This document shows, one piece after another, positions 47,964-63,164 of a stretch of DNA of 64,000 nt. Within the stretch, counting starts at the first letter, position 1, and each line of letters starts with the position of its first letter. The notes below the pieces were generated by a model. It saw only the letters and a program-made list of their open reading frames with translations, did no database searches and was not told the origin of the DNA. The stretch spans positions 124,001 to 188,000 of the forward strand of contig NZ_PJBF01000041.1 of the NCBI RefSeq assembly GCF_002836505.1, read 5' to 3'. The translations under genes and the position numbers were made by a program. This DNA comes from Psychrobacter sp. Choline-02u-9. Its GTDB lineage: Bacteria > Pseudomonadota > Gammaproteobacteria > Pseudomonadales > Moraxellaceae.

Positions 47964-48041
47964 GCTTTTAAATTATCATTTCCTTTATAAGTTTTTCTCT
48001 ATCAATGACAACCGTTTAAAATGGCTTTTTAAGTGGCTAGT

Positions 48042-48866
48042 TTATGCTGGGTTTTTGATATCGATAAAGGTAACTGGCAGACCAAATTTTTGAGCGACTA
48101 TCTCTCCTAATGCTTGAATACCGCCACATTCTGTCGCATGATGACCACAAGCAAAATAGTCAATCCCAAGCTCACGCGCGCTATGTGTGGTACGCTCAGA
48201 TATCTCACCAGAGATAAATGCATCACAGCCCATGCTAGCCGCTTGCTCAATCATATCCTGCGCACCGCCCGTACATATACCCACACGTTCGATCAGCCTA
48301 CCATTTTTCTGAGTAGGAGAGTCTGCATGATACTCAGCTGAAATATGTAATGGCGCGCGGCCTAAAGCTTGAGTAATGGTGGCAATGAGATCGTCAGTAC
48401 TTTGCGGTGTGCAAGTAGCGATATTGCCCACAGGATGGGACTCGGTAGGATAGAGCGCACCAGTAATCGTCATGCCGAGTACGTCAGCAAGTTTTGCGTT
48501 GTTGCCAGAGATTGGGTGTGAGTCAAGCGGTAGATGATAGCCAATCATAGAGATACCGTGTTGCATCAGCTTGCGCACGCGTCGACCTTTCATCCCAGTA
48601 AGCGGTGCAGGTTCGCCTTTCCAGAAGTATCCATGATGCACCATAATTGCATCGGCATTGTCAGCGATCGCAGCATCAATTAGGGCTTCACAAGCCGTGA
48701 CACCAGTGACGATACGCTGAATTGGTCGTCCGCCATCTACTTGTAGACCGTTTGGTGCGTAGTCTTTAAACGCACTAGTAGATAAGTAGTCGTCACAGAA
48801 CTGTGTCAATGCCTGAGCGCTAATGCTTTGAGTATTGGATTCAGCTGTCGTATGATTTGCAGTCAT
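48042..48866 (-). CDS. Nif3-like dinuclear metal-centre protein (YbgI type)
   Basis: A 274-residue protein with the metal-binding motifs of the Nif3/YbgI family: AIMVHHGYFWKG near residue 75, the MIGYHLPLDSHP segment near 110, and GHHATECGGIQALGE near the C-terminus. Members form hexameric rings with two metal ions per subunit. A GTP cyclohydrolase-like activity was once proposed, but the role is unsettled. It is divergent from the DegS-like gene. Confidence 0.88.
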   Translation of the reverse strand: MTANHTTAESNTQSISAQALTQFCDDYLSTSAFKDYAPNGLQVDGGRPIQRIVTGVTACEALIDAAIADNADAIMVHHGYFWKGEPAPLTGMKGRRVRKLMQHGISMIGYHLPLDSHPISGNNAKLADVLGMTITGALYPTESHPVGNIATCTPQSTDDLIATITQALGRAPLHISAEYHADSPTQKNGRLIERVGICTGGAQDMIEQAASMGCDAFISGEISERTTHSARELGIDYFACGHHATECGGIQALGEIVAQKFGLPVTFIDIKNPA

Positions 48867-49246
48867 TATGTTTTCCTGTCATCAATAAAATGTATGTCGT
48901 AAGGTGCTGTAGATTAACTAAGCAAAAATTATGTATTATCTGTCATGTTTGAGAGTGTTTGGTTTTGGACTTCTCGCTTTATGTTCAATTCTCGAAATGT
49001 TGAAGTGTCGAGCATCGTAAAAGCTATTTTAACATGCCGTTGTAAGCAAGCAGACAAGCTGGATAACTGAAATGGTACACGATACGTTACTATTTACTGG
49101 TATTGCGGTTATAATTTATATACGTGAGTCTGCCTAGCTGTATAGCATTTGACCATCTGATGAATGGGTCAACACTAGCTAAGCGGTCGCCATTATCTCA
49201 CATCGTTTTTCACTGTCTGTTTGCAATAAATTTATAGAGGTTTTAT
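48867..49246. other. divergent promoter region, Nif3-like gene and DegS-like gene
   Basis: About 380 AT-rich bases with no clear repeat or RNA structure. Purine-rich AGAGG at 49237-49241 precedes the ATG at 49247. No confident promoter can be named. Confidence 0.3.
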
Positions 49247-50572
49247 ATGTCGTCATCCCGGAACACCAATAACAAGGCGTCTTTATTAAAATGGTTACCT
49301 TGGGTCTTATTGCTGCTAGTGTTGGCAGCGTTTATCTGGTTGTTCACGAGTATGAAGTCGACGTCAGAGGCCACATGGGAGCCGCCGAGAACCCCGCCTG
49401 CGGAGCAGCAAGCAGCAGAGCCAGTGTCGGACACGCCAGCGCCTATCTCTTCTTATCATAATGCAGTGGCGCGTGCGTCGCAGTCTGTAGTCAATATCTA
49501 TACGACGCAAACGATGACCGAGCATCCTTATATGGATGATCCCGTACTGCGCCGGTTTTTTGAGTATCATGGTGGCCCATCACAAGAGCAGGGCAATACC
49601 AATTTAGGCTCTGGTGTGATCGTATCAGAAGATGGCTATATCGTGACCAATGCCCACGTAATCGAAAAGGCCGATGAGATCACAGTCGCGTTCAATGATG
49701 GTCGTAAGAGCCGTGCCAGAATCATCGGTACAGATCCTGATAGTGACCTAGCTGTGATTAAAGTCGATATGACTGGATTGACGCCACTTGGCTTCCGTGA
49801 AGATCCGATTCGTGTGGGTGATTTGGCTCTAGCGATTGGTAACCCATTTGGTGTGGGTCAGACAGTGACGCAGGGGATTATTTCAGCGACTGGACGTACT
49901 GGACTGGGTGTCAATAAATTCGAAGACTTTATCCAGACTGATGCCGCTATCAATCCGGGTAACTCAGGCGGTGCGTTGGTCGATGCTCGTGGTGAGTTGG
50001 TCGGTATCAATACCGTTATATTCTCGCGCTCTGGTGGTTCGATGGGTATTGGCTTTGCCATTCCGACGGCACTGGTTGAGCAAGTGATGAATGCTTTGAT
50101 TAAAGACGGCCGTGTAAGTCGTGGCTGGCTAGGTATCGAGATCCAGTCACAGCTACGTGATCCAACGCAATTAGAGACGTCAACAGGTGTAGAAGTACTA
50201 AACGTCATTGATAACAGTCCAGCGGCGAAAAGTGGTCTACGTGTCGGTGATATCGTCCTAACCATCGATGATGTCGAGATGACAGATGCCAATACGTTGA
50301 TTCAGTATGTTGCCCGTAAGCCACCAAACACTGAGCTAGATGCGCAAATATTGCGTCAAGGTAAAAACGCCCAAGTAAAAATCACCCTAGAAGAGCGTCC
50401 AGCACAAGAACCACTTGAGCGTCCTGTCGTACTGCAAAATGAGAGTATGGGCGGCATGGGAGAGCCAAGCATCCAAGGTGATGAAGAAACGCCGATGATG
50501 TCAAAGGCAGAGCGTGATCGTATGCGCGAAGAGCTGATGAAACTGTTTGAGCAAGATACCGCAACGCAGTAA
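49247..50572 (+). CDS. degS: DegS-like periplasmic serine protease
   Basis: A 441-residue HtrA-family protease. It has one N-terminal membrane anchor (about residues 15-34), a proline-rich linker, a trypsin-like domain with the triad His137 (NAHV), Asp167 (SDLAV) and Ser240 (PGNSGGAL), and a single PDZ domain at about 285-385. One PDZ plus an anchor rather than a cleaved signal is the DegS layout, which senses misfolded porins and starts the sigma-E cascade. A hydrophilic C-terminal tail of about 60 residues is longer than in E. coli DegS (355), so its role may differ. A bidirectional terminator follows. Confidence 0.85.
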   Translation: MSSSRNTNNKASLLKWLPWVLLLLVLAAFIWLFTSMKSTSEATWEPPRTPPAEQQAAEPVSDTPAPISSYHNAVARASQSVVNIYTTQTMTEHPYMDDPVLRRFFEYHGGPSQEQGNTNLGSGVIVSEDGYIVTNAHVIEKADEITVAFNDGRKSRARIIGTDPDSDLAVIKVDMTGLTPLGFREDPIRVGDLALAIGNPFGVGQTVTQGIISATGRTGLGVNKFEDFIQTDAAINPGNSGGALVDARGELVGINTVIFSRSGGSMGIGFAIPTALVEQVMNALIKDGRVSRGWLGIEIQSQLRDPTQLETSTGVEVLNVIDNSPAAKSGLRVGDIVLTIDDVEMTDANTLIQYVARKPPNTELDAQILRQGKNAQVKITLEERPAQEPLERPVVLQNESMGGMGEPSIQGDEETPMMSKAERDRMREELMKLFEQDTATQ

Positions 50573-50650
50573 GTCGTAGGTTCTTCTTACCACTATGTGC
50601 TGGCTCATAACGTGTTTATGGGACAGCACACTGATGTAGCTAATAGCATA

Positions 50651-50687
50651 AAAAAGCGCGTTCCTTATCTAAAGGAGCGCGCTTTTT
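50651..50687. terminator. bidirectional terminator between degS and the ferredoxin gene
   Basis: GCGCGTTCC (50656-50664) pairs with GGAGCGCGC (50674-50682) with one wobble. Five A residues precede and five T residues follow, giving terminators in both directions. Confidence 0.9.
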
Positions 50688-50742
50688 GTTGGAGCTGATT
50701 TTTCTAAATTTTAAAGGCTAGCTTTATCTATACCTAACCCTG

Positions 50743-51012
50743 CTATAACTTCTCAATAGGGTCATGATTGATATAGATGACACCTTGCACACGGCAACAG
50801 CAGGGCAGGATCTCATCTTCTTCAATCATCGCCAGTGGGTCAAATGGATAATCGACCGTATGCGAGCTAGCAATACGTTTGACTCGGCAACTACCACAGT
50901 AGCCCTCGCGGCATTGATAGTTTACCTCGTGTCCGGTGCGTAGCAGTCCATCTAGCAGACTCTCGTCATCATGTAGATAGAACTGCTTTTTACTGGTCAT
51001 TACCCAAGTCAT
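50743..51012 (-). CDS. yfaE: 2Fe-2S ferredoxin, YfaE-like, for ribonucleotide reductase
   Basis: An 89-residue plant-type ferredoxin with the cluster motif Cys34-x4-Cys39-x2-Cys42 and a fourth ligand within the CCC at 71-73. Its position right after nrdB matches YfaE, which supplies electrons to maintain the diferric-tyrosyl cofactor of NrdB. A second possible ATG lies at 51000. The gap to nrdB (51013-51168) carries the degenerate tandem repeats described separately. Confidence 0.88.
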   Translation of the reverse strand: MTWVMTSKKQFYLHDDESLLDGLLRTGHEVNYQCREGYCGSCRVKRIASSHTVDYPFDPLAMIEEDEILPCCCRVQGVIYINHDPIEKL

Positions 51013-51089
51013 CGTTAATCCTATTGGGATATGTCTGTGCTACTGCTATCCCTACTATTAACCCATAAGACGATTACAGCGATAGAAAT

Positions 51090-51183
51090 TTTATAACTTC
51101 AAATTTCTACCGCTCAAACCTTTATAGCTCAAAGCTCTTATAATGTAGATTCTTATAACGCAAAGCTCTTACAATTCAAAGTC
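51090..51183. repeat. degenerate ~16-bp tandem repeats overlapping the nrdB stop
   Basis: Read on the minus strand, a unit like AGCTTTGAGCTATAAG recurs about six times with substitutions and small length changes. The first copy covers the last codons and stop of nrdB (stop at 51169-51171). The others fill the spacer toward yfaE. They look like decayed duplications of the gene's own 3' end. Confidence 0.55.
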
Positions 51184-52302
51184 ATCAAAATCACTGTCTG
51201 ATAAGTCAGAGTCAATCTGACCAACCAAGTACGAGCTAATCTCAGTCTCTTGCGGTGCTACTTGCACATTGTCAGACGACAACCACGTGTTGATCCACGG
51301 GATTGGGTTTGATTTTGAATTCGGGAACGCCGCTGGCAAGCCGACCGTTTCCATACGCAAGTTGGTGATGTATTCGATATATTGGCAAAGGATGTCTTTG
51401 TTTAGACCAATCATCGAGCCATCTTTGAATAGATAGCCTGCCCATTCTTTTTCTTGCTCAGCAGCCTTGCGGAAAATCTCAATGCTTTCCTCATAGCATT
51501 CTGCGGCAATCTCGACCATCTCAGGATCGTCACGACCGTTGCGCATGAGATTTAGCATATGCTGCGTACCCGTCAAATGCAGCGCTTCGTCACGAGCGAT
51601 GAGCTTGATGATTTTGGCATTACCTTCCATCAATTTACGCTCAGCAAAGGCAAATGAGCAAGCAAACGATACATAGAAACGAATGGCTTCTAGGACATTG
51701 ACCGCCATGATGCATAGGTACATTTGCTTTTTGAGTGATCTTAAATCAACCGTCACTTGCTCGCCATTGATGTTGTGCGTACCTGGCCCATACAGGCTAT
51801 ATAGCTGCGAGTTGCGGTACAGCTCATCATAATACTGAGCGATATCAGAGGCACGGCCTAAGATGTGCTCGTTTTGCATAATGTCATCAAAGATAATATT
51901 TGGATCATTGACGATATTACGAATGATATGCGTATAGCTGCGTGAGTGAATGGTCTCAGAGAACGACCATGTCTCAATCCACGTCTCAAGCTCAGGGATA
52001 GATACTAGCGGCAGTAGCACCACGTTTGGACTACGACCTTGGATAGAGTCGAGTAGGGTCTGGTACTTGAGGTTACTCAAAAATATGTGCTGCTCATGCG
52101 ACGATAGATTGCTAAAGTCGATACGGTCGCGTGATACATCGACTTCTTCTGGACGCCAAAAGAACGATAGCTGCTTTTCAATCAATTGCTCAAAGATAGG
52201 GTGCTTTTGTTGGTCATAGCGCGCCACGTTGACGGGCTGACCAAAGAACATCGGCTCTTTTAGCGCATTGTTTGGCGTTTGAGAAAAAATCGAGTAAGTC
52301 AT
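51169..52302 (-). CDS. nrdB: ribonucleoside-diphosphate reductase class Ia, beta subunit
   Basis: A 377-residue R2 protein, matching E. coli NrdB (376). It carries the diiron ligand segments, including [15 protein letters not shown] and the [15 protein letters not shown] helix. The acidic C-terminus ends in DSDFDDFEL, the tail that docks on NrdA. It generates the tyrosyl radical used to reduce ribonucleotides. It is separated from nrdA by a small Lys/Ala-rich gene and the KAP NTPase gene, all on the same strand. Confidence 0.95.
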
Positions 52303-52399
52303 GGGACTGCCTTTATAATTGATACGGTTATTAATTTGTAGGGATTTGACTGGTTTTGATTTGAGGTTATGACACGTTTTTGGATTATAGCGTTTTAGC

Positions 52400-52771
52400 T
52401 TAGAGGTTCTCTAGCGATATCTGCGACGACTCTTGTCCATCGTTCATATAGGCTTTGAAAATCTCGCTCAGTTCACTATCATCGAGCGCTTCTAATTCAT
52501 CAAGTGCGCTTTTGCGTAGGGTGCTCACATCAGACTCTTCCGCTGCTGTTTTTACGTCTTTTTTAGCCGCTCTCGATACTGGCTTTTTGGCTGCTTTTAC
52601 CACGCTTTTTTTGGCGACGGCTGCCTTTGGTGCTTCATTTATACCTAACTGCTGACGCACCTCTGCAATATCAACCTCGACTTGTACGATATGCGAGCCA
52701 CCATCGTTTAGGTCTGAAAATACGTTTGGGATAAACAAACCACCGTCTTTGATGATTGCGGTATATTGCAC
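52400..52771 (-). CDS. small Lys/Ala-rich protein between the KAP gene and nrdB
   Basis: A 123-residue protein I cannot assign. Residues 1-35 look like a short beta-rich domain ([16 protein letters not shown], then HIVQVEVDI). Residues 48-75 are a Lys/Ala-rich stretch of repeated AAKK units resembling histone H1-like tails. The C-terminal 40 residues are acidic and helical ([17 protein letters not shown]). The start is a GTG at 52771 only three bases after a perfect GGAGGT, an unusually short spacing. It lies 97 bases before nrdB and may be co-transcribed with it. Confidence 0.7.
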
Positions 52772-52819
52772 ATGACCTCCGTCGTTTTATTCTGTCTATA
52801 TGTTGCTTTTATAGTGGTT

Positions 52820-55800
52820 TTAAGTTTTATTCATTCTATTTTTGACTTCAACTTGAGATTTATTATCTTTAAATTCGGGTATTTGTATACTTAATCCTAA
52901 TTTCTTGTTTAATTTTTCATAAATTTGAAATTCATTACGGTCACTTGACGATAGTTTATGCTCAACCTGCGCAACAAGGGTTTCTTGATGGCTTTCTCTA
53001 AAACCAATAGGAATGTCTAAAAGCCATTTTATCTTCTGCATATGATTACTTTCTATCCAGCTACTGATCCTGCTTTCTAAGTCTCTTTGATCTAGATGTT
53101 TGATATAGGGTGCAATAGATGGGGCTATCAACATGAAATCCATCTCATCTAGAGGATCAGTTTCATTATGTTGAAAATAGCTTTTTGTTACTTCCTCAAG
53201 ACGTAAATCTATATCTAGAACCTTATTTTTCAAACTCCAAAATTTTCTTAAAATATCATGATTTGGTAAATCTAAAGTATTGGAAGTGATTAGTTGAAAG
53301 TAGCTTGCCCATGCCATACTAAATGTAGGAGTACTATCTGGTATGCACGATAATAGTTCATTATCGCTTTCAAAAGCTTCTAACCATTGCTTTTTATTTA
53401 AGTTTTTTAGAACTGATTTAGCAAAATCCCTAGCCTCCTTATTACCATGTTTAGTTAGCAGATTAATAGCTTTATGATATGCGTTAGGTTTCTCCCTAAT
53501 ATCTTCATGTATACTCTCTAACGCTCCATTCTCGCATAGCTTAACGATCACTTCTTCTAAAATTGAGTCAGAGCTCCATTCAATTTCATCAAAATGTGCT
53601 GCACCACACGAAAATAAATCTGTGTCATCACTATTTTCTAAAATATGTACGGCAAATTTATTTTTCTCATTTCTAGCTAAGTCCCAGATATTATGTAAGC
53701 TATTAGCTTCCCTGAATAAATTTAAAACCCAATCAAGTTTATCTTCTTCAAGCTCATGTGATAAATATTCCTTAATGAAATCAGGTACTTGGGCGTTATC
53801 TCTATATTTTTCATCTATAATAGCTACTAAAAAAGGTAGTGTTGGATTTTTTTCTATACTTGAATACCTAGATCTTTGCCAAAATCCAGATGATTTTATA
53901 CATTCTTCAAGTTTTTCCCTATCAGTTTCTTTTAACATAGGTGTAATATTTATAATGAAATTATAGAATGGTTCTATATCATGTTCTCTGGAAGGTAAAT
54001 TAAGCCAGCTTATAACTGAATTTACTAATGTTTTCCAGTTAGATATATCGCTATCTATTTCCAGAGACTTAATTAGTACTTTGAAATTTTCTGTTTTTAA
54101 TTGATTAGAATTAAAACCACAGTTAGCAACAATTTGTTCGTAAATATTAGTCTGAGGTAAGACTGTCTTAATTATACTATCTTCACTTGAGCATTCTGTT
54201 ATCCATGTTTTCCAGTTTTCGTAGGTAAAAGTGTAACGAGATTTTCTTATAGAACTGTCATGCGCAAATAGTATAGCCTCAATCTCTGATAGACCTGATA
54301 ATTCTGAACGACTAAATTTCTCAGTACCAACTGATTTTACTAACTTGACCACTCTAGTTTTAAACTTCGAATTTAAATGTTCAATAAAATCTTTTCTATT
54401 CCTAGTAATCTTAATTAATTTCTGTACAGTCTCCGTATAACTGTATTTTTCAAAATTTAAATCTTTGAAGAAATCTATAAAAGTAGTTTCTATCTTGTTT
54501 ACATATTCATATATATTTTCTACTTCATCTACAAAAGCATCATGTAAGCTAGCAATAGAGTTTATGACGTGACCATCATTACTACCATCTTTTATTATCC
54601 ATTCGTTTTCACTAGCTCTAAATGCAAGCCAAAAAGCATCTTGATGATTTTCTCTAAGTTCTTTAAGCTTCTTCCCCTCACCTTTGAAAATAGATGATTT
54701 TATTTCTGGAGAGAGAAGTAGTTGTGTGCCTTTATCTGCGCTAACACCGAATAAAAGACCAGCAAGCTCGGGTTTGATCTGTGATTCTTTGAGGCTAGTT
54801 GGGAATGACTCAGGAATACCTTCTTTCAACAAAGCAGTTCTAAATTCATTCTCAGTCATTGATTGTCGAGCAAGACTATAGATACATAACGATTCGGCAC
54901 TAAATTCATTTTTCCAATGTAAAGCTAGAATTCCAACTCTATTAATTGTGCTATGTATATATCTAGGCGATGGTGACTTATCTAGCTTGCTCATACATCT
55001 GATATAACTCTCTATATACGCATTTTTAAATTCTTCATGCCAACCATAAAGTGACTTATCAACGCATTTTTTAAAATAATCAATCCAAGCAGACATGACA
55101 GGAGGTGGCACCTCAACTGTAATTTGAAAACATTTCTCCATAAATGAAGTTGCCACTATATTTCTTGACGCTGCTTCAGTTTTCCCGTTATCAGTTTTTG
55201 AATCGTTATCTTGAACTTGAAAATTGTCACTTTGCCAGATTTTCTGTATAGCTTCCCTATCAAAAGGAATTAGGAACCAAAGTTTATCTTTCCATTCGAG
55301 AGGTTTTGAGTTAAGTGAAGAGCTTCTATGTTGAAAAAATGTCTGTAATGTTGACCAAATTGTTTGAGCATAGTCAGGATCAACTCGGTCGAGGTTATCA
55401 ATAACAATAATAGCTTGTTCATAAGTAGTTGTAGATTCTGATGAGAACAAATGTGACATAATCTCATCAAAGAATTTCTCAAACTCGATAGAGGTTCTTT
55501 CTCCATCTTCAGTAATGTCCTGAGTATAGTTTTCAGTCGACTCTGATTCAAAAAAGTCCCATTTAGTCTTATCATCAGAATCTTTATCACCCCAGAACTT
55601 CCACCAAATAATCATTAATAAAGGACCGAAGGCAAAGAGCAGGCCAAAAATTAATCTAAAGCTAGGAGAGGTAGCTGCTTCATGAGTAGGCCATACTAAA
55701 CTATCATACGGAGTTTGGTTTAGTAAGGCCGCTCCTGCAGGTACAAGAATAGCAACAGTTGATAGATATTTCCCAAGCTTTGAAGCAGACTTTTCAGACT

Positions 55801-56191
55801 TAACAGTTACAGTTTTCTTCCTCGCGCTTACTTGATTTTTCAACTCAATTAACTTTTTATCTTCACTGCTTGATTCTATGGAATCAATTAAACTTTCTAA
55901 AAAAATTTTTCTTAAAGGATCTCCATCATGTGCCCACGCATCAAAAGCGAAAAAAAAGACATTCTTATCTTCTTCTTGTAATTGTTGCCTAAGAATATTA
56001 ATGATTGTTGATTTACCAGAACCCCAGCTACCTTCCAAACCAATAGTTAGACCGTATTCTTCTTGAGTCATTAGCTTGTTTAAGGTCGTTGCCACCTTTT
56101 CATGAGTTTTATCTTCAAACAGGTCAGTTTTTGCAACTTGTTCATGAAGTACATGAAATGAGTAATCGTGATTGAGTTCTTTATCAGTCAT
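52820..56191 (-). CDS. KAP family P-loop NTPase, membrane-associated, AT-rich insertion
   Basis: An 1,123-residue protein. Walker A GSWGSGKS is at residues 54-61, the KAP-type FDAWAHDGDPLR segment at 83-94, two membrane helices at about 142-158 and 178-200, and Walker B IIVIDNLDRVD at 261-271. Helices inserted in the NTPase domain are the hallmark of the KAP group (Kidins220/ARMS and PifA). The remaining ~800 residues are mostly helical with no domain I recognise. The gene is far more AT-rich than nrdA (18 of 60 G/C in row 53641 against 27 of 60 in row 57001), which suggests transfer. It lies between nrdA and nrdB. A defence role is plausible by relation to PifA but not shown. Confidence 0.85.
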   Translation of the reverse strand: MTDKELNHDYSFHVLHEQVAKTDLFEDKTHEKVATTLNKLMTQEEYGLTIGLEGSWGSGKSTIINILRQQLQEEDKNVFFFAFDAWAHDGDPLRKIFLESLIDSIESSSEDKKLIELKNQVSARKKTVTVKSEKSASKLGKYLSTVAILVPAGAALLNQTPYDSLVWPTHEAATSPSFRLIFGLLFAFGPLLMIIWWKFWGDKDSDDKTKWDFFESESTENYTQDITEDGERTSIEFEKFFDEIMSHLFSSESTTTYEQAIIVIDNLDRVDPDYAQTIWSTLQTFFQHRSSSLNSKPLEWKDKLWFLIPFDREAIQKIWQSDNFQVQDNDSKTDNGKTEAASRNIVATSFMEKCFQITVEVPPPVMSAWIDYFKKCVDKSLYGWHEEFKNAYIESYIRCMSKLDKSPSPRYIHSTINRVGILALHWKNEFSAESLCIYSLARQSMTENEFRTALLKEGIPESFPTSLKESQIKPELAGLLFGVSADKGTQLLLSPEIKSSIFKGEGKKLKELRENHQDAFWLAFRASENEWIIKDGSNDGHVINSIASLHDAFVDEVENIYEYVNKIETTFIDFFKDLNFEKYSYTETVQKLIKITRNRKDFIEHLNSKFKTRVVKLVKSVGTEKFSRSELSGLSEIEAILFAHDSSIRKSRYTFTYENWKTWITECSSEDSIIKTVLPQTNIYEQIVANCGFNSNQLKTENFKVLIKSLEIDSDISNWKTLVNSVISWLNLPSREHDIEPFYNFIINITPMLKETDREKLEECIKSSGFWQRSRYSSIEKNPTLPFLVAIIDEKYRDNAQVPDFIKEYLSHELEEDKLDWVLNLFREANSLHNIWDLARNEKNKFAVHILENSDDTDLFSCGAAHFDEIEWSSDSILEEVIVKLCENGALESIHEDIREKPNAYHKAINLLTKHGNKEARDFAKSVLKNLNKKQWLEAFESDNELLSCIPDSTPTFSMAWASYFQLITSNTLDLPNHDILRKFWSLKNKVLDIDLRLEEVTKSYFQHNETDPLDEMDFMLIAPSIAPYIKHLDQRDLESRISSWIESNHMQKIKWLLDIPIGFRESHQETLVAQVEHKLSSSDRNEFQIYEKLNKKLGLSIQIPEFKDNKSQVEVKNRMNKT

Positions 56192-56272
56192 TAAAGTTGC
56201 TGCCTTTTATTTTTGAGAAAAAAGTATAGTTCTTTTGCAAACATAAAATACATACTTAGTACGACACCTAAT

Positions 56273-56307
56273 TATGAAATAAGCTTGAAGTTCAAACTTA
56301 TTTCATA
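56273..56307. promoter_or_regulatory. 35-bp near-perfect palindrome between nrdA and the KAP gene
   Basis: Seventeen bases on each side of G56290 are inverse complements with a single mismatch (56284 against 56296). It is AT-rich, lies about 80 bases upstream of the KAP start and 95 bases after the nrdA stop. No U-run follows on the minus strand, so an operator or dimer-binding site is as likely as a terminator. Confidence 0.6.
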
Positions 56308-56401
56308 TGACTGATAACTTATACTTATAATTTTCGTAGAAAACTTGGACTAAATCTTTATATTACAGATGAAGACCTTAATTTCTCTAAATTATTCCAA
56401 C

Positions 56402-58678
56402 TTAAATCTTACATGCACCGCCAGCACAATCATCTTCCATATCCGCTTGGGCATCGTTCGCACCATCACGAGTATTATGATAGTACAACGTCTTCACACC
56501 CATCTTATAAGCGTTTAGCAAGTCTTTTAGCAATATCTTCATCGGTACACGGCCACCAGCATAACGAACAGGATCGTAGTTGGTATTGGCAGAGATACTT
56601 TGATCGACGAATTTTTGCATGATAGCGACCAGCTTTAGGTAACCGTCATTGTTTGGCATTTGCCATAGTAGCTCGTACTGATCTTTTAGGGTAGCAATCT
56701 CAGGCACGACTTGCTTTAAGATGCCATCTTTGGACGCTTTGATAGAGACCAGACCACGTGGTGGCTCGATACCGTTGGTCGCGTTGGCGATCTGACTTGA
56801 GGTCTCAGACGGCATCAAGGCGGTTAGGGTAGAGTTGCGTAGACCGTGCTCAGTGATCTCGCCACGTAGTGTTTCCCAATCGAGATGTAGCGGCTCTTGG
56901 CAGATTTTATCCAAGTCGGCTTTGTACGTATCAATCGGTAAGATACCTTGTGAGTACGTGGTCTCATTGAACGCAGGGCATGCGCCTTGCTCTTTTGCCA
57001 ATTTGTTCGACGCTTTCAAGAGGTAGAACTGCAACGCTTCAAAAGTCTGATGGGTCAGACCAAGCGCGCTGTCGTCAGAGTAGCGTGCACCATTCTTAGC
57101 TAAGTAATAAGCATAGTTGATTACGCCCACACCTAGCGTACGGCGACGCATGCTGCCGTTTTGAGCGGCTTTTACTGGATAGTCTTGATAGTCGAGCAGG
57201 GCATCAAGCGCACGGACGATTAGCTCGGCTGGCTCTTCGATGTCGCTGACGTTTTCGACTTTACCCAAGTTGACCGCTGATAGCGTACAAAGAGCGATTT
57301 CGCCTTCTTCGTCATTGATGTTATCCAGTGGCTTGGTCGGTAGCGCGATTTCCATACATAGGTTTGACTGGCGAATCGGGGCAACCGTCGCATCAAATGG
57401 GCTATGGGTGTTGCAATGATCGACGTTTTGGATATAGATACGACCCGTGCTGGCGCGCTCTTGCATCATTAGGCTGAACAAATCAGCGGCTGGGATTTGA
57501 CGGCTACGTACGTTAGGATCGTTTTCGTACTTGGTGTATAGCTCTTCGAATTTGTCTTGATCTTCAAAGAACGCATCATATAGGCCTGGCGTGTCACCTG
57601 GTGAGAATAGCGAGATGTCTTGACCTTTGATGAGGCGCGTGTACATCGTTTTGTTTAACTGTACGCCGTAGTCCATATGACGGACACGGTTGTCTTCGAC
57701 ACCGCGGTTGTTTTTGAGTACCAGTAATGACTCAACTTCTAAATGCCATAGTGGATAAAATAGAGTCGCAGCACCGCCACGGACGCCGCCTTGTGAGCAG
57801 CATTTCACAGCCGTTTGGAACAGTTTGTAGAATGGGATACAGCCAGTATGCTGTGCTTCGCCGCCACGGATAGGACTACCAAGGGCACGGATACGACCCG
57901 CGTTGATGCCGATACCAGCACGCTGTGATACATAGCGTACGATGGCGCTAGTGGTCGCGTTGATAGAGTCTAGGCTATCGCCGCACTCGATCAAGACGCA
58001 CGAGCTAAACTGGCGTGATGGCGTACGCACACCTGACATGATAGGCGTCGGTAGTGAGATTTTGAACTCTGAGGTTGCATCATAGAAGCGTTTGACGAAA
58101 TCAAGACGGTCTGACTTGTCGTATTGGCTAAACAGACACATACCGACGAGCATGTATAAGAACTGCGGGCTCTCATAAACAGTTTTGCTCACACGATCTT
58201 GTACCAAGTACTTACCAGCCATTTGCTCAACAGCGGCATAAGCAAGGTTCATATCGCGCCAGTGATCCAGATACTCTTCTAGCTCGTCAAATTCAGCACG
58301 GCTATAGTCAGCTAGGATATGTTGATCGTATTTGCCAGCATCAGTCAAAGTTTTGACATGGTCATATAGGTGCGGCGGGGTGAATTTGTTATAAGCAATC
58401 TTACGTAAATGGAAAATAGCCAAACGCGCTGCTAGATATTGATAATCAGGCGTGGTTTCAGAAATTAGGTCGGCGGCAGACTTGATGATGGTTTCGTGGA
58501 TATCACGAGTCTTGATACCTTCATAAAACTGGATGTGCGATTTTAGCTCAACTTGCGATACTGACACATTTTCTAAACCATCAGCCGCCCACGCGATTAC
58601 CTTGTGAATTTTGTCTAAATCAATAGGCTCTAAACGTCCATCACGTTTGGTTACTTGGATTTTGTCAATATGTGTCAT
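56402..58678 (-). CDS. nrdA: ribonucleoside-diphosphate reductase class Ia, alpha subunit
   Basis: A 758-residue catalytic subunit, close to E. coli NrdA (761). An N-terminal ATP cone (KIQVTKRDGRLEPIDLDKI, about residues 5-90) senses the ATP/dATP balance. The barrel carries FSSCVLIECGDS with an active-site Cys, NLCMEIALP and CTLSAVNLG. The C-terminal redox pair is Cys751 and Cys756 (DCAGGACKI). It makes deoxyribonucleoside diphosphates. NrdR-like boxes lie upstream at 58825-58870. Its usual partner nrdB is more than 4 kb away, beyond the KAP gene. Confidence 0.96.
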   Translation of the reverse strand: MTHIDKIQVTKRDGRLEPIDLDKIHKVIAWAADGLENVSVSQVELKSHIQFYEGIKTRDIHETIIKSAADLISETTPDYQYLAARLAIFHLRKIAYNKFTPPHLYDHVKTLTDAGKYDQHILADYSRAEFDELEEYLDHWRDMNLAYAAVEQMAGKYLVQDRVSKTVYESPQFLYMLVGMCLFSQYDKSDRLDFVKRFYDATSEFKISLPTPIMSGVRTPSRQFSSCVLIECGDSLDSINATTSAIVRYVSQRAGIGINAGRIRALGSPIRGGEAQHTGCIPFYKLFQTAVKCCSQGGVRGGAATLFYPLWHLEVESLLVLKNNRGVEDNRVRHMDYGVQLNKTMYTRLIKGQDISLFSPGDTPGLYDAFFEDQDKFEELYTKYENDPNVRSRQIPAADLFSLMMQERASTGRIYIQNVDHCNTHSPFDATVAPIRQSNLCMEIALPTKPLDNINDEEGEIALCTLSAVNLGKVENVSDIEEPAELIVRALDALLDYQDYPVKAAQNGSMRRRTLGVGVINYAYYLAKNGARYSDDSALGLTHQTFEALQFYLLKASNKLAKEQGACPAFNETTYSQGILPIDTYKADLDKICQEPLHLDWETLRGEITEHGLRNSTLTALMPSETSSQIANATNGIEPPRGLVSIKASKDGILKQVVPEIATLKDQYELLWQMPNNDGYLKLVAIMQKFVDQSISANTNYDPVRYAGGRVPMKILLKDLLNAYKMGVKTLYYHNTRDGANDAQADMEDDCAGGACKI

Positions 58679-58824
58679 GCTGGCCTCTATTTTGATTGCT
58701 TATTGTGATGCTGCGCGCCAAAGCAGCGGCAGACATTCTTTATAACGCTATTATACGGGGGTGTGGTAGCTGTTTTTTTGGGCAAAAAGCTACCACTACT
58801 CGTAGTGACGGTTAAAATCACTGA

Positions 58825-58870
58825 GTACTACATATAGCGTTTTTGTTAATTGGTAGGCACAATATAGCGG
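58825..58870 (-). promoter_or_regulatory. pair of NrdR-like boxes upstream of nrdA
   Basis: The NrdR consensus ACACWATATATWGTGT matches 58825-58840 at 12 of 16 positions and 58855-58870 at 10 of 16. Both share ATATAGCG, exactly 30 bp apart. Paired boxes about 31 bp apart upstream of nrd genes are the usual NrdR arrangement. The second box is weak, so this is a candidate only. Confidence 0.4.
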
Positions 58871-59102
58871 GAAAATTTTGAAAATACTATATTGATTTTA
58901 GAATAAAACTATGTTGCTACAAGGTTGTAGGCAGTCCAAATTTTGGCAAAGGACGATGGGATAAGGGTTAGACGCAAATGCGGTCAATAATAAATTTTTG
59001 TAAAAATATCGTGAGATTTACTTTTCATTCTCTCGGTTATTGTCGACTGATAATGGGAGTCATGGCGGCAATAATGCGGGCGCAGATTGTACATTAAACC
59101 AC

Positions 59103-59145
59103 AAAAAATCGCCACCCATAACTTATTACTAGCGAGTGACGATTT
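59103..59145 (-). terminator. terminator of the DUF493 gene
   Basis: AAATCGCCAC (59106-59115) pairs with GTGACGATTT (59136-59145) with one mismatch. Additional A residues from 59103 give a U-run on the minus strand, just past the DUF493 stop. Confidence 0.7.
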
Positions 59146-59178
59146 GGACTAAAAAGGCGTGAAAGTTTTTTATGCGAC

Positions 59179-59571
59179 TTATAAAACAATACGAACCGTT
59201 TTTGCATTATCAAGTGAGGCATAAAGCGCATTCACTTGCTCAGCAGCGGTTAGGTACAAATTAACCCGTGCTGAGTGAAAACGACCCGTTTTAGACGGCT
59301 TAACTTCGATAGACGCCAAATCAAAATCAGGGAATTGGCTACCCAAAATTAGCTTCACTTCATTAAGCAAACTCTCACGCTCGCCTTCATGACCGATGAT
59401 GCTCAGTGGGTAGTTCATCGGGAACTCCCAAAGCTCTGGGTTTTGAATATCAGTCTTTTTGCCTACCAATGCGCCTTTATTTGGCGTCAGGTCAGTGACT
59501 TTAACTGACGGCTGATTGCTGGTTGGGTTATTTGTGCTGTTGTCGTTGTTGTCTTTTGAATCATCACTCAT
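59179..59571 (-). CDS. DUF493 (YbeD-like) protein
   Basis: A 130-residue protein. The first 45 residues are Asn/Ser/Asp-rich and probably disordered. The DUF493 core follows: FPMNYPLSIIGHEGE, a helix, then KPSKTGRFHSARVNLYLTAAEQVNALYASL. This is the ACT-like fold of YbeD, which in enterobacteria lies beside lipB. Here lipB is at 11.4 kb. The function is not established. Confidence 0.85.
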   Translation of the reverse strand: MSDDSKDNNDNSTNNPTSNQPSVKVTDLTPNKGALVGKKTDIQNPELWEFPMNYPLSIIGHEGERESLLNEVKLILGSQFPDFDLASIEVKPSKTGRFHSARVNLYLTAAEQVNALYASLDNAKTVRIVL

Positions 59572-60010
59572 GATATGAGCCTCGCTTATATAGGTAAATA
59601 GGAAAAAGTTAATCAGTCATTAGTAGTAAATAAGTAAGTAACTAACATTAAGTCATTCGAAAATCGCTGCTATAGATATTTAGTTAGTTAAACATCTGCT
59701 CAAATCATGCCAAAAGCATAACGCAAAAATCTGAGACAGGCTCAGTATGGTCGTAAGTGGCACTTAAATCAGTCAAGCTATAGTCGATTCAATTTAAAAG
59801 TAGTACAAGGCAACCGAGTGTAGATGTAACTGTGATACTTCAAGCGAGGTTAACGCTGTCATACTTTTATAGTGGAATGGCTATATTAGGCAGAGAATAT
59901 ATGCACTGTTTATAGTGGTCTATAGGTGATTATTCAAGTGAAGTCTGTATTTAGTCCGTTTCATCTTGAAGTAGTAAGCTAAATGGCTTTTATTAAAACT
60001 ATTATAAAAG
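59572..60010. other. spacer between the DUF493 and bestrophin genes
   Basis: About 440 AT-rich bases between two minus-strand genes. Some short direct repeats (AAGTAA units near 59628-59645) occur. I see no gene, convincing terminator or RNA structure. Confidence 0.35.
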
Positions 60011-60970
60011 CTATTGCAAATAGCCATTGATAGGAGTGATATCAGGCGGAATATCCGTCTCTCCCAATGCTTCTCTTAGATTAATCTCGATAGTGCGTGA
60101 CAAGGCAGTCAAAGGTAACTGGTTAGCGGCCAAACCAAAAGGCTCTTCTAACTCTTCACTAAGCGCATCCAGACCAAAAAAAGTATAAGCAATCACCGCA
60201 CAAACCAACGGGGTTGCCCAACCGAGTGATGCCACCAAACCGAAGGGCAACATAATGCAATATAAATAGGTCGTGCGATGTACCAGCAGCATGTAAGCAA
60301 AGGGCAGTGGTGTGTTATGAATGCGCTCGCACGCTGCCAGTACAATTGTCATAGAGGTCAGGCGTTCATCCATATTTTGTATGACTTGTTCCGATACCAG
60401 TCCTTGACGCCGAATATCGCCAAGCTGTTTACCCATTAGGCGCATTATATAATCAGGTACGTTTTTCGCTTGGCGCATACGGTCATGGTGTATCGCTGCA
60501 ACAAGAGGCTCGATATCCGCCCAAGGTGGCGTACCACGCAATCGGTGGCGCACAGCATGGGCAAAAGAAATGGTCAGATATACCATCGTTCGCTGAGTAT
60601 CGTGTGCAGTCGCATTGTCATCCTCGCCATCATCTATGGCATTCGCATCGTCATCATCTATAAAAGACAGCACTTGGCGCGTTAAGCTACGAGAGTCATA
60701 TACCAGCTGACCCCACAGTCCGCGCGCTTCCCACCAACGCTGATAACTGGCATTGTTTCGAAACCCAAGAAACAACGATAAGGCAATCCCGAGCAAGGTA
60801 AACGTTGCCATACCATAATAAGGAAACGAGTCAGGCATCCAGTGCTGAATAATCGTGATGAGCGTACTAAGAATAGTAATCAGCAAAATTTGCGGATAAA
60901 TTTTTGGAATGATTGATCCACGTAGAGTGAAAAATATCTTAAGGGCATTGGGTGTTTGCCGGACAATCAT
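60011..60970 (-). CDS. bestrophin-like membrane protein (UPF0187/YneE)
   Basis: A 319-residue protein with the bacterial bestrophin pattern. It has N-terminal helices with FPYYGMATFTLLGIALSLFLGFRNNASYQRWWEARGLWGQL, an amphipathic middle, and a C-terminal LDALSEELEEPFG segment shared with eukaryotic bestrophins. Bacterial members form pentameric cation-selective channels. An Asp/Glu-rich loop (DDDDANAIDDGEDDNA, about 103-118) replaces part of the usual linker. It is transcribed alone. Confidence 0.88.
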   Translation of the reverse strand: MIVRQTPNALKIFFTLRGSIIPKIYPQILLITILSTLITIIQHWMPDSFPYYGMATFTLLGIALSLFLGFRNNASYQRWWEARGLWGQLVYDSRSLTRQVLSFIDDDDANAIDDGEDDNATAHDTQRTMVYLTISFAHAVRHRLRGTPPWADIEPLVAAIHHDRMRQAKNVPDYIMRLMGKQLGDIRRQGLVSEQVIQNMDERLTSMTIVLAACERIHNTPLPFAYMLLVHRTTYLYCIMLPFGLVASLGWATPLVCAVIAYTFFGLDALSEELEEPFGLAANQLPLTALSRTIEINLREALGETDIPPDITPINGYLQ

Positions 60971-61664
60971 GTCAGTTTCCTAGCGATGGGGTATATGTAG
61001 ACACTATTAAATGTCACGTGTGATTCTAATATAGAAATGAGTTCTGTAAAGCCCAAAAGGCTATAAATTTATTCAAACTAAAGAGTAAGGTGATTACTTA
61101 AGCTTGATAATTGAGATAGCTATAGGAGTTAAATCCTCGCCAAAAGAGCGATGTTTTTATTAATCTACTTTATGTATGTTAAAATGATGCAAAATATCAC
61201 TTCTTAACTCTATAAAAGCTGCCACCACAAAGATGAATACGCCACCCTAGCTGTACCCCTCCTCAGTAATGATTGCTTCCTATAGCAATTACTCTTATAA
61301 AGCGTCTGACGCTTTTTCTTGTGCGCACGCACTGCTTTAACGTTTGTATCACTATTCGATATATCTAGTGGATCATAAAAATTATCCCACTAAAAATATG
61401 TTATGACGATAACTCGATAACTATGCTCGTTCACATTTTTATATTTATCATTTGATAGGCAATGGGCAACGTGTCTGGATATCAAAGGGTATAAACAGAG
61501 ATGTGCCTAGATAGCAAAGGATCTAAATAAAGATGTGTCAGACTTTTCATGTGAGATGATTTTTAACTACTTTTTAGATACTTTCCAATTAGATATTTTC
61601 TAAATAATGATTAGATACCTCGTTTATTGACAGACTAAAGCAGTTCCCCAAAACTGAGTTAAAT
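60971..61664. other. 694-base divergent region between the bestrophin and SulP genes
   Basis: No reading frame of note. At 61272-61289 an ATTGCT/AGCAAT stem and at 61299-61315 an AAAGCG/CGCTTT stem followed by TTCTT form a two-hairpin unit with a terminator-like end, about 345 bases before the SulP start. It could be the end of a small RNA. The rest shows nothing I can support. Confidence 0.4.
61272..61320 (+). ncRNA. possible small RNA 3' end (two hairpins plus U-rich tail)
   Basis: Two consecutive stem-loops, the second followed by a U-rich tail, lie in a gene-free region upstream of the SulP gene. No coding gene ends nearby on the plus strand, so an orphan terminator may mark a small RNA starting near 61180-61200. 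No promoter is convincing. Confidence 0.3.
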
Positions 61665-63164
61665 ATGTTAAATACAATTAAAGAGCATTGGCTATCCAAT
61701 GTGAGAGGCGATGTCTTGGCTGGCATGGTCGTCGCTTTGGCGCTTATCCCTGAAGCGATTGCGTTTTCTATCATTGCCGGTGTCGATCCCCAAGTAGGGC
61801 TTTATGCCTCGTTTTGTATCGCGGTAGTGATTGCGTTTGTCGGTGGTCGTCCAGCGATGATTTCGGCGGCGACTGGTGCGATGGCGCTACTAATGGTGAC
61901 GCTGGTCAAGGATTATGGATTGCAGTATTTGTTAGCAGCCAGTGTGCTGACAGGTGTTATACAGATTATCTTTGGCTTCTTAAAGCTAGGTAATCTAATG
62001 AAATATGTGTCGCAATCCGTAGTGCTCGGCTTTATCAATGCCTTGGCTATTTTGATTTTTATGTCACAGGTTCCTGAGCTGATGCCGCAGGCAGGTTCAA
62101 ACCTAGTACACGTATACGGTCTTGTGGCGCTAGGTCTAGTCATTATCTATGGCTATCCATATATTCCAAAGATCGGTAAAGTGATTCCATCGCCATTGGT
62201 CAGTATTGTACTGGTCACGGCTATAGCTATCTTATTAGGTGCAGAGGCTCGAACCATCAATGATATGGGTCAGCTACCTGATACCCTGCCGATGTTTTTG
62301 ATACCTGATATCCTGTTGAACTTAGATACGTTGATCATTATTTTCCCGTACTCTATCAGTTTGGCGATAGTGGGCTTACTTGAGTCTATGATGACCATGA
62401 CTATCGTAGATGATTTGACCGATACCAAAGGCGACCGTACGCAAGAGTGTAAAGGCCAAGGTATTGCCAATGTGGTTAGTAGCTTTTTTGGCGGGATGGC
62501 AGGCTGTGCGATGATTGGGCAGTCGATCATCAACGTCAAATCAGGCGGCTATACACGTCTTTCTACTTTAGTGGCAGGCGTGTTTTTATTATTGATGGTA
62601 GTGTTCTTAAGCGATTGGTTAAAGATTATTCCAATGGCCGCATTGGTCGCTGTGATGATTATGGTGTCTATCGGTACTTTTAACTGGGATTCGTTTAAGG
62701 AACTAAAAACCAAGCCGTTACAAAGTAATGTGGTCATGATTACGACTGTCGCTGTGGTGGTCGCAACGCATAACTTGGCCTATGGCGTATTGATTGGCGT
62801 GCTGCTGTCAGCATTGTTCTTTGCCAATAAGATTGAGCGCTATATGAGTGTGCATAGTCACATGGATGAAGCATCGCAAACGCGTTATTATCGAGTTGAC
62901 GGACAAGTATTTTTCTCATCAGCAGAGCGTATGATTGATTCCTTTGATATTAAAGAATCTGTCTCTAACGTGGTCATTGACGTGTCGCGCGCGCATTTTT
63001 GGGACGTGACAGCAGTCGCCGCCATAGATAAAGTCATCATTAAATTTCGCCGCGAAGGCACTGAGGTAGAGCTAATCGGTTTGAACGAGGCGAGCCAAGC
63101 GATGATAGATAATTTCGGTGTGCATGATAAGCCAGATGCTGAGCAAAGCTTAGGCGCGCATTAA
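61665..63164 (+). CDS. SulP family anion transporter with STAS domain
   Basis: A 499-residue protein. About twelve or more helices begin after the SulP opening [37 protein letters not shown]. The [23 protein letters not shown] segment lies near the middle. A C-terminal STAS domain (about 410-495) contains [15 protein letters not shown] and [22 protein letters not shown]. The family moves sulfate, bicarbonate or dicarboxylates; the substrate is not readable here. The protein is shorter than many SulPs (550-600). Confidence 0.9.

Follow-up and report, generated by a model that had tools for sequence, protein, structure and literature searches.

We analysed a 64,000-nucleotide stretch of the genome of Psychrobacter sp. 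Choline-02u-9 (the window, whose positions are used throughout), which carries a gene, here called kap, inside the operon of class Ia ribonucleotide reductase (RNR). An earlier note, made from the letters alone, had described a 1,123-residue KAP-type P-loop NTPase between the RNR subunit genes nrdA and nrdB. The open reading frame (ORF) is exactly as described and both subunit genes were confirmed as equivalogs; the placement needs one correction, as a small conserved gene, p123, separates kap from nrdB. A p123 match was found in 87 of the 104 loci of the genus described below. The stretch between the nrdA stop codon and the p123 start is referred to as the slot, and the genes in it as cargo (Table 1).

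The kap gene and its product

The kap protein matches the Pfam family KAP_NTPase (PF07693) with an E-value of 1.2e-28 and 100.6 bits (cut-off 20) over residues 32-422 and profile positions 3-289 of 293, and is thus a member of the KAP family. When the protein is aligned with four relatives, the intact Walker A motif GSWGSGKS and the FDAWAHDGD motif (residues 83-91) show one or two varying residues each, and IDNLDR, in the intact Walker B region, shows one. The two membrane helices proposed earlier correspond to two hydrophobic segments, both situated between Walker A and Walker B inside the NTPase domain; such a pair is present in all six long proteins examined, the kap protein included. The gene is, as had been noted, poorer in G+C than its neighbours, with 32.9% against 47.9% in nrdA, and with 24% at third codon positions (GC3) against 50% in nrdA and 53% in nrdB. 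An A+T-rich inverted repeat (56273-56307; arms of 11 nucleotides exact, or ~17 with one mismatch) lies between nrdA and the kap start.

The C-terminal structure prediction that the earlier note had called for gave an all-helical region with the form of a HEAT/ARM-like solenoid, in an AlphaFold2 model whose overall confidence is low. HEAT/ARM-repeat chains make up the bulk of the solved-fold matches of this region, and along residues 720-1100, all helical, the ten-residue means of the predicted local distance difference test score (pLDDT) are mostly 68-88. For residues 1-530 modelled alone, the top solved match is the RdrA heptamer of RADAR (Foldseek E-value 1.5e-4, Z 12.5; 213 aligned residues within 26-358, root-mean-square deviation 5.5, 13% identity), obtained with a low-confidence query model; behind it come Cdc6/ORC and then BrxC, NRC and CED-4 folds. 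This list fits a core of the AAA+/STAND-like type, with which the modelled fold is consistent. A sequence-based search of solved structures with the kap protein returned short P-loop matches only.

Table 1. Features of the nrd locus in the window and of the kap protein
Feature	Coordinates	Strand	Basis
kap, 1123-aa KAP-family P-loop NTPase, main cargo of the slot	52820..56191	(-)	ORF, ATG start; Pfam match; kept motifs
Walker A GSWGSGKS, residues 54-61	56009..56032	(-)	five-sequence alignment; varies only at residue 55 (S or G)
Walker B region with IDNLDR (264-269), residues 260-269	55385..55414	(-)	no variation at D265-R269 in the five-sequence alignment
Hydrophobic segment 1, residues 139-157	55721..55777	(-)	Kyte-Doolittle mean 1.58
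Hydrophobic segment 2, residues 177-195	55607..55663	(-)	Kyte-Doolittle mean 2.09
Predicted all-helical C-terminal region, residues 430-1108, HEAT/ARM-like alpha-solenoid in the model	52868..54904	(-)	AlphaFold2 model
Variable slot, nrdA stop codon to p123 start	52772..56401	(-)	homology breaks by eye; slot statistics; control intervals
nrdA, class Ia RNR alpha subunit, left core flank	56402..58678	(-)	NF006578 equivalog, 1507.8 bits, above cut-off
p123, 123-aa small conserved gene, right core flank	52400..52771	(-)	ORF; no accepted Pfam family
nrdB, class Ia RNR beta subunit	51169..52302	(-)	NF006576 equivalog, 732.2 bits, above cut-off
2Fe-2S ferredoxin, downstream of nrdB	50743..51012	(-)	Pfam Fer2 6.4e-11

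The slot across the genus

The nrd region was taken from 103 genomes of the genus, which gave 104 loci (two of 105 genomes have no nrdB match). Slot counts refer to the 80 loci with both nrdA and p123; 10 loci with no nrdA on the stretch and 14 with no p123 match were left out. The slot is never empty in these 80 loci: its length is 1077-4678 bp, with a median of about 1950 bp and an interquartile range (IQR) of 1657-2470 bp, and none is <500 bp. The control intervals have IQRs of 507-549 bp for DUF493-nrdA (n = 90, largest 1384), 78-107 bp for p123-nrdB (n = 87, largest 654) and 98-159 bp for nrdB-ferredoxin (n = 73, largest 373). In all 80 loci the slot is richer in A+T than nrdA (mean G+C 34.9% against 47.4%). 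The main slot ORFs form 41 clusters and lie on the nrdA strand in 80 of 80 loci, a count made less strict by the omission of eight ORF clusters (border, companion, toxin-antitoxin or antisense) from the choice of main cargo. The comparison of nrdA-nrdB intervals suggested in the earlier note has therefore turned up other genes at the place of kap, defence families among them, and no empty site among the 80 loci. By eye, in 20 loci, homology breaks off on the left at the nrdA stop codon or ~150 bp or less after it, and on the right 30-200 bp upstream of p123 unless a RelBE-like pair is present.

Outside this count, the 14 loci with nrdA and no p123 match have nrdA-nrdB distances of 204-9452 bp. 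Two of them, in genomes G004 (locus L072, 204 bp) and G108 (L150, 423 bp), are possibly near-empty, in an ancestral or an emptied state. Four genomes of other families (NrdB 57-70% identical) have a cargo-free nrdA-nrdB gap of 17-103 bp, and in two genomes of the sister genus with a close nrdB the 1.5 kb upstream of that gene contain neither nrdA nor p123. We also observed an nrdB in two pieces with stops in G087 (L153) and two nrdB loci in G094 (L151 and L152); both may be assembly effects.

Full-length kap is found in 2 of 105 genus genomes, that of the window and G057 (Psychrobacter aestuarii); 11 other genomes have short P-loop matches only. Presence in all relatives, which the earlier note had named as refuting its reading, was thus not observed. 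Both full-length copies are lodged between nrdA and p123, in slots with G+C of 33% (window) and 31% (P. aestuarii) against 48% and 53% in the respective nrdA. The genome nearest to the window by nrdA (G023, 95.2%) holds a different slot gene, and G103 and P. aestuarii, with 95.3% identity in nrdA, differ in cargo as well. Genomes G068 and G074 have identical nrdA and nrdB and different cargo, the only such pair found. Pairwise nrdA identities were computed between loci of equal nrdA length (2274 bp in 72 of the 80), so that 'nearest' and 'only' are valid within those comparisons.

Shared cargo can be far more alike than its flanks (97.5% identity against 90.9% for nrdA in G008 and G058; 92.3% against 83.6% in G066 and G123), which indicates that cargo passes between lineages. 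Because no integrase, transposase or recombinase accompanies the kap cargo in the window, we think it probable that cargo is swapped by homologous recombination in the nrdA and p123-nrdB flanks. At fourfold-degenerate sites, identity in nrdB declines from 66% to about 51% with distance from the slot. The highest value in nrdA, 76%, belongs to the penultimate full bin, while the last full bin and the first one both have 65%. This rise near the slot, less clear in nrdA than in nrdB, fits double crossovers in the flanks but is no more than suggestive. A ComEC-type competence protein encoded in the window genome makes DNA uptake possible, but proteins of this family are common (present in 10 of 14 control genomes) and therefore say little. 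There are no tRNA genes in the 64-kb window and no Rfam families at 48000-62000, so no tRNA-type integration site was seen. A phage-borne nrd region as the vehicle was rejected: among at least 5000 matching phage records the best NrdB is 76% identical to that of the window, and hence no near phage source was seen.

Cargo genes, relatives of kap and known systems

For Pfam annotation, 40 cargo proteins were hand-picked, either to represent clusters or because their ORFs were prominent, in part from loci not among the 80; 26 of the 40 have a match at 1e-3 or better. The cargo includes a CBASS-like set (SMODS, ThiF, JAB and DUF6602), a second CBASS-like pair (SMODS and AGS_C with SLATT_6), TIR_2/ThsB with a caspase-type peptidase (Peptidase_C14), a protein kinase, AbiH, nSTAND1/AAA, DUF4062, a reverse transcriptase (RVT_1), AIPR, Schlafen AlbA_2, CHAT, FRG, DUF2971 and DUF4238, along with P63C, DUF4145 and a weak match to DNA_pol_B_exo1. 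Many of these are immune families. At 1e-5, 271 PADLOC models found a match within a set of 48 proteins (47 cargo proteins and the kap protein), a count of models rather than of proteins with a hit and one raised by redundancy, for instance among the cyclase models; nine models were matched by 40 other window proteins, a control set that includes core genes. A KAP protein of a second kind occupies the slot of G078: 476 residues long, it is a nearly full-length PDC-S20 (PADLOC 3.3e-91).

Several cargo genes deserve mention in their own right. A single-chain AAA_21-DUF4435 fusion (L059:11653-13278, scanned, from G030; homologue in G093) resembles the two PARIS proteins joined in one. A 551-residue protein with a P-loop-like GRPGAGKT motif (L049:11003-12658; homologues in G006, G007 and G035, split into two ORFs in G007), present in four slots and with no Pfam or PADLOC match, is a candidate for a new defence family. 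Another family, of ~400 residues, is present in six slots (L128:2511-3728; homologues in G009, G019, G085, G103 and G109), and the member scanned matched neither Pfam nor PADLOC. In many genomes a RelBE-like toxin-antitoxin pair accompanies varied main cargos on the p123 side of the slot (e.g. L045, L048 and L062); RelE-type slot ORFs were found in 37 of 103 genomes and RelB-type ones in 34.

A scan of genome contigs found four relatives, that of P. aestuarii and three outside the genus. The relative in Alcanivorax sp. 1008 follows HsdM and HsdS and precedes HsdR, with further ORFs between and AbiEii on the contig; in a Thiotrichales genome bin the order is TniQ, the kap relative, Eco57I/N6 methylase; and in an Omnitrophota bin the relative comes after AAA_21 and RloB genes. 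Three distant relatives are thus in restriction or RloB-type loci, and no nrd genes were recognised by reading in these three. Samples of 390 genomes of the order, 369 of the class and 398 of the phylum yielded, at E-values of 1e-30 or less, two further relatives only: one in G303, on a 4.8 kb contig uninformative for context, and one in G925, from another family of the order. The latter, of 1169 residues (25% identity over 532 columns), is encoded directly after nrdA-nrdB, with a HipA_C-like gene beyond it (L160:6540-14486). In that family, the 1.5 kb after nrdB contain relatives of Psychrobacter slot cargo in 3 of 30 loci, namely KAP (L165), the G097 type (L167, 43% identity, 1e-48) and the DUF2971 type (L169, 4e-10), and none in the remaining 27.

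Apart from a Thermaerobacter plasmid considered below, four plasmid records (two of Rhizobium, one each of Bacteroides and Phocaeicola) match only residues 1-501 or less. The match in the Rhizobium sp. 11515TR plasmid falls in a region with no annotated gene, that in R. gallicum has metabolic and hypothetical neighbours with DUF262 and HNH genes ~6 kb on, and the only annotated gene at the Phocaeicola match is a predicted resistance gene. Phage records gave no match to kap at 1e-5, and none of 69 pattern-matching stretches in viral contigs encodes a relative.

PifA of the F plasmid, which excludes phage T7 from F+ cells, shares the KAP P-loop segment with the kap protein. The closeness to PifA suggested earlier was not supported beyond this segment: the PADLOC PifA model covers residues 33-147 only (model positions 28-140 of 720). 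Likewise PDC-S20, a PADLOC defence candidate, is a KAP protein but matches kap only within residues 29-130 (best stretch 29-128, model positions 22-114 of 464), and the PDC-S20 protein of G078 lacks the hydrophobic pair. Tmn is reportedly a single-gene system, said to have been described by Gao and colleagues in 2020. It is characterised as an inhibitor of several phages and as a KAP NTPase that has two membrane segments (PMC11846954). As far as this description goes, Tmn and kap are alike in these segments and the KAP domain, in consisting of one gene and in accessory distribution; the likeness is one of domain plan, and the long helical tail of the kap protein falls outside the comparison. 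Among the models that PADLOC listed for the kap protein none is named Tmn, although its library was not verified to include one. By analogy in domain plan, Tmn is the closest published model of how kap may work.

QatA, the KAP protein of QatABCD, is reported to form a heptamer or octamer (PMC13279940) and combines, like kap, a KAP NTPase domain with an unrelated C-terminal region. The kap protein scores 55 bits with the NCBIfam QatA model against a cut-off of 600 and is therefore not a QatA equivalog, and no QatB-, QatC- or QatD-like gene was recognised beside kap, whose neighbours are nrdA and p123/nrdB. RdrA of RADAR is a heptameric AAA+ ring (PMC9994260); among the six neighbouring proteins of kap that were scanned there is no RdrB-like deaminase.

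Interpretation and alternatives

Judged by its sequence content, the nrdA-p123 interval is of the core defence hotspot type, with conserved flanks, variable content and known immune families. The core defence hotspots cDHS1 and cDHS2 of Pseudomonas aeruginosa, as presented in PMC10250203, likewise have conserved core flanks with differing immune genes between them and are mostly occupied. Both are described there as adjoining tRNA or tmRNA genes and frequently containing mobile genes, and cDHS1 has a median size of 26 kb, whereas the nrdA-p123 slot is 1-5 kb long, holds mostly one module, is inside the RNR operon and is used on one strand. A literature search covering few subscription journals found no paper on a defence hotspot in nrdA-nrdB or in Psychrobacter, and the term 'nrd' has no occurrence in the main texts of PMC10250203, PMC10121019 and PMC11124354. 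Nor did this search find a hotspot that is located inside an RNR operon, small, mostly single-module, confined to one strand and occupied in every locus with both borders, as the slot is in all 80.

We consider it probable that kap is a single-gene, membrane-anchored KAP immune ATPase, so far a predicted one, residing in this genus-wide core defence slot. The anti-phage role that the earlier note held possible gains from the defence families in the same slot and from the three relatives beside restriction or RloB-type genes. In the mechanism that we envisage, the KAP core would assemble into an AAA+/STAND-like ring, an idea drawn from the RdrA heptamer as the top solved fold and helped by the oligomers reported for QatA (PMC13279940). 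The solenoid would recognise a ligand that comes from the phage or is altered by it, after which an ATP-driven rearrangement would let the inserted membrane hairpins act on the inner membrane and halt the infected cell, i.e. cause abortive infection.

A number of observations weigh against this interpretation. No Pfam match was obtained for 14 of the 40 cargo proteins, and of 10 submitted to PADLOC one by one, most of them selected because Pfam gave no match, 9 had none there either, so that much of the slot content is without a defence assignment. PADLOC models match the kap protein itself only partially, with the best stretches within residues 14-147. The structural models are weak (mean pLDDT 61.9 for the full-length protein, 63.7 for residues 1-530); the solenoid matches, with Z up to 8.7, reflect a common arrangement only, and the RdrA match, whose TM-score is low at 0.25 of the query, is nearly equalled by Cdc6/ORC (Z 12.0 against 12.5). 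The excess of identity at the nrdA 3' end, expressed in points, is modest, 3.96 in 16 pairs that recently shared cargo against 2.64 in matched ones (183 of 20000 draws, with non-independent pairs), and the gradient itself is genus-wide (mean +3.2 points in 2476 non-sharing pairs). ORFs for insertion sequence-type transposases were recognised by reading in G034 and G064, in loci outside the 80. On a Thermaerobacter plasmid, the gene of a 1119-residue KAP protein has neighbours of transposase and toxin-antitoxin type, and no defence system was recognised beside it. Finally, kap is 84% identical at the nucleotide level between the window genome and P. aestuarii, close to the 81-84% of nrdA. The proposal that kap is a transferred gene is thus supported by its accessory distribution, foreign composition and exchangeable site, but this divergence speaks against a simple recent transfer, and the two copies may be old and common by descent.

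The same divergence, with the equal placement of the two copies, is what would be expected if kap were a vertically inherited housekeeping gene that belongs to the nrd operon and has disappeared from most relatives. This we find hardly credible in view of its presence in two genomes only, the foreign composition of both slots and the different cargo of G103 next to an nrdA so close to that of P. aestuarii. That the slot is a neutral landing site, gathering any foreign DNA with no selection for defence, and kap an accessory gene with another role, would agree with the unassigned cargo proteins, the frequent RelE-type toxin ORFs and the presence of P63C, DUF4145 and the weak DNA_pol_B_exo1 match. 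It is quite unlikely, since known immune families are well represented in the cargo and not in the control set, none of the 80 slots is empty and three kap relatives are in defence loci.

The earlier note had also proposed that kap responds to phage takeover of deoxynucleoside triphosphate (dNTP) synthesis. The unrelated cargo in the same slot speaks against this and for a site preference. A broader version, in which cargo is co-transcribed with nrdA so that immune genes rise with dNTP demand, or kap monitors RNR or nucleotides, draws on the common strand of all main cargo ORFs and on the other family of the order, where the 1169-residue KAP protein and two other relatives of slot cargo follow nrdB. 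It remains unlikely in our estimate: the cargo types are unrelated to each other, the three relatives' loci have no recognised nrd gene, in the other family 27 of 30 nrdB loci gave no cargo relative, and a strand bias is also expected if antisense cargo merely harms an operon. The recurrence beside nrdB is nevertheless the reason to keep a possible link of cargo with nrd. Its boldest form, which strikes us as doubtful, is that the nrdA-nrdB interval is a dedicated socket for sense-strand single-module defences whose expression follows nucleotide demand and thus phage replication, that it arose at least twice in the order and that long KAP ATPases favour sites beside nrdAB.

The slot is a resource for discovery, as 41 main-cargo clusters within one genus share fixed flanks and can be cloned by nrdA/nrdB primers for tests of phage protection. 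It suggests that an essential operon can serve as a defence hotspot with neither a tRNA gene nor an integrase, and it lends itself to testing cleanly whether the position of immune genes serves co-regulation with dNTP synthesis. The kap gene, in turn, adds a long family with membrane segments and a solenoid to the poorly understood immune ATPases.

Some minor features of the locus may be added. A scan for promoters and terminators was near chance (24 found against 18.3 +- 4.3 expected, and 5 against 4.9), with no terminator-like site positioned after nrdA. Many genomes (e.g. loci L041, L042 and L044) have upstream of p123 a G+C-richer border stretch of ~200 bp with a promoter-like end, TTGGCTACTGTTATAAT, which is missing in the window and in P. 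aestuarii. Over 32 columns, the C-terminus of p123 resembles that of the RelB-type slot protein (hhalign probability 91), and p123 may, to go by this likeness, be a lone antitoxin.

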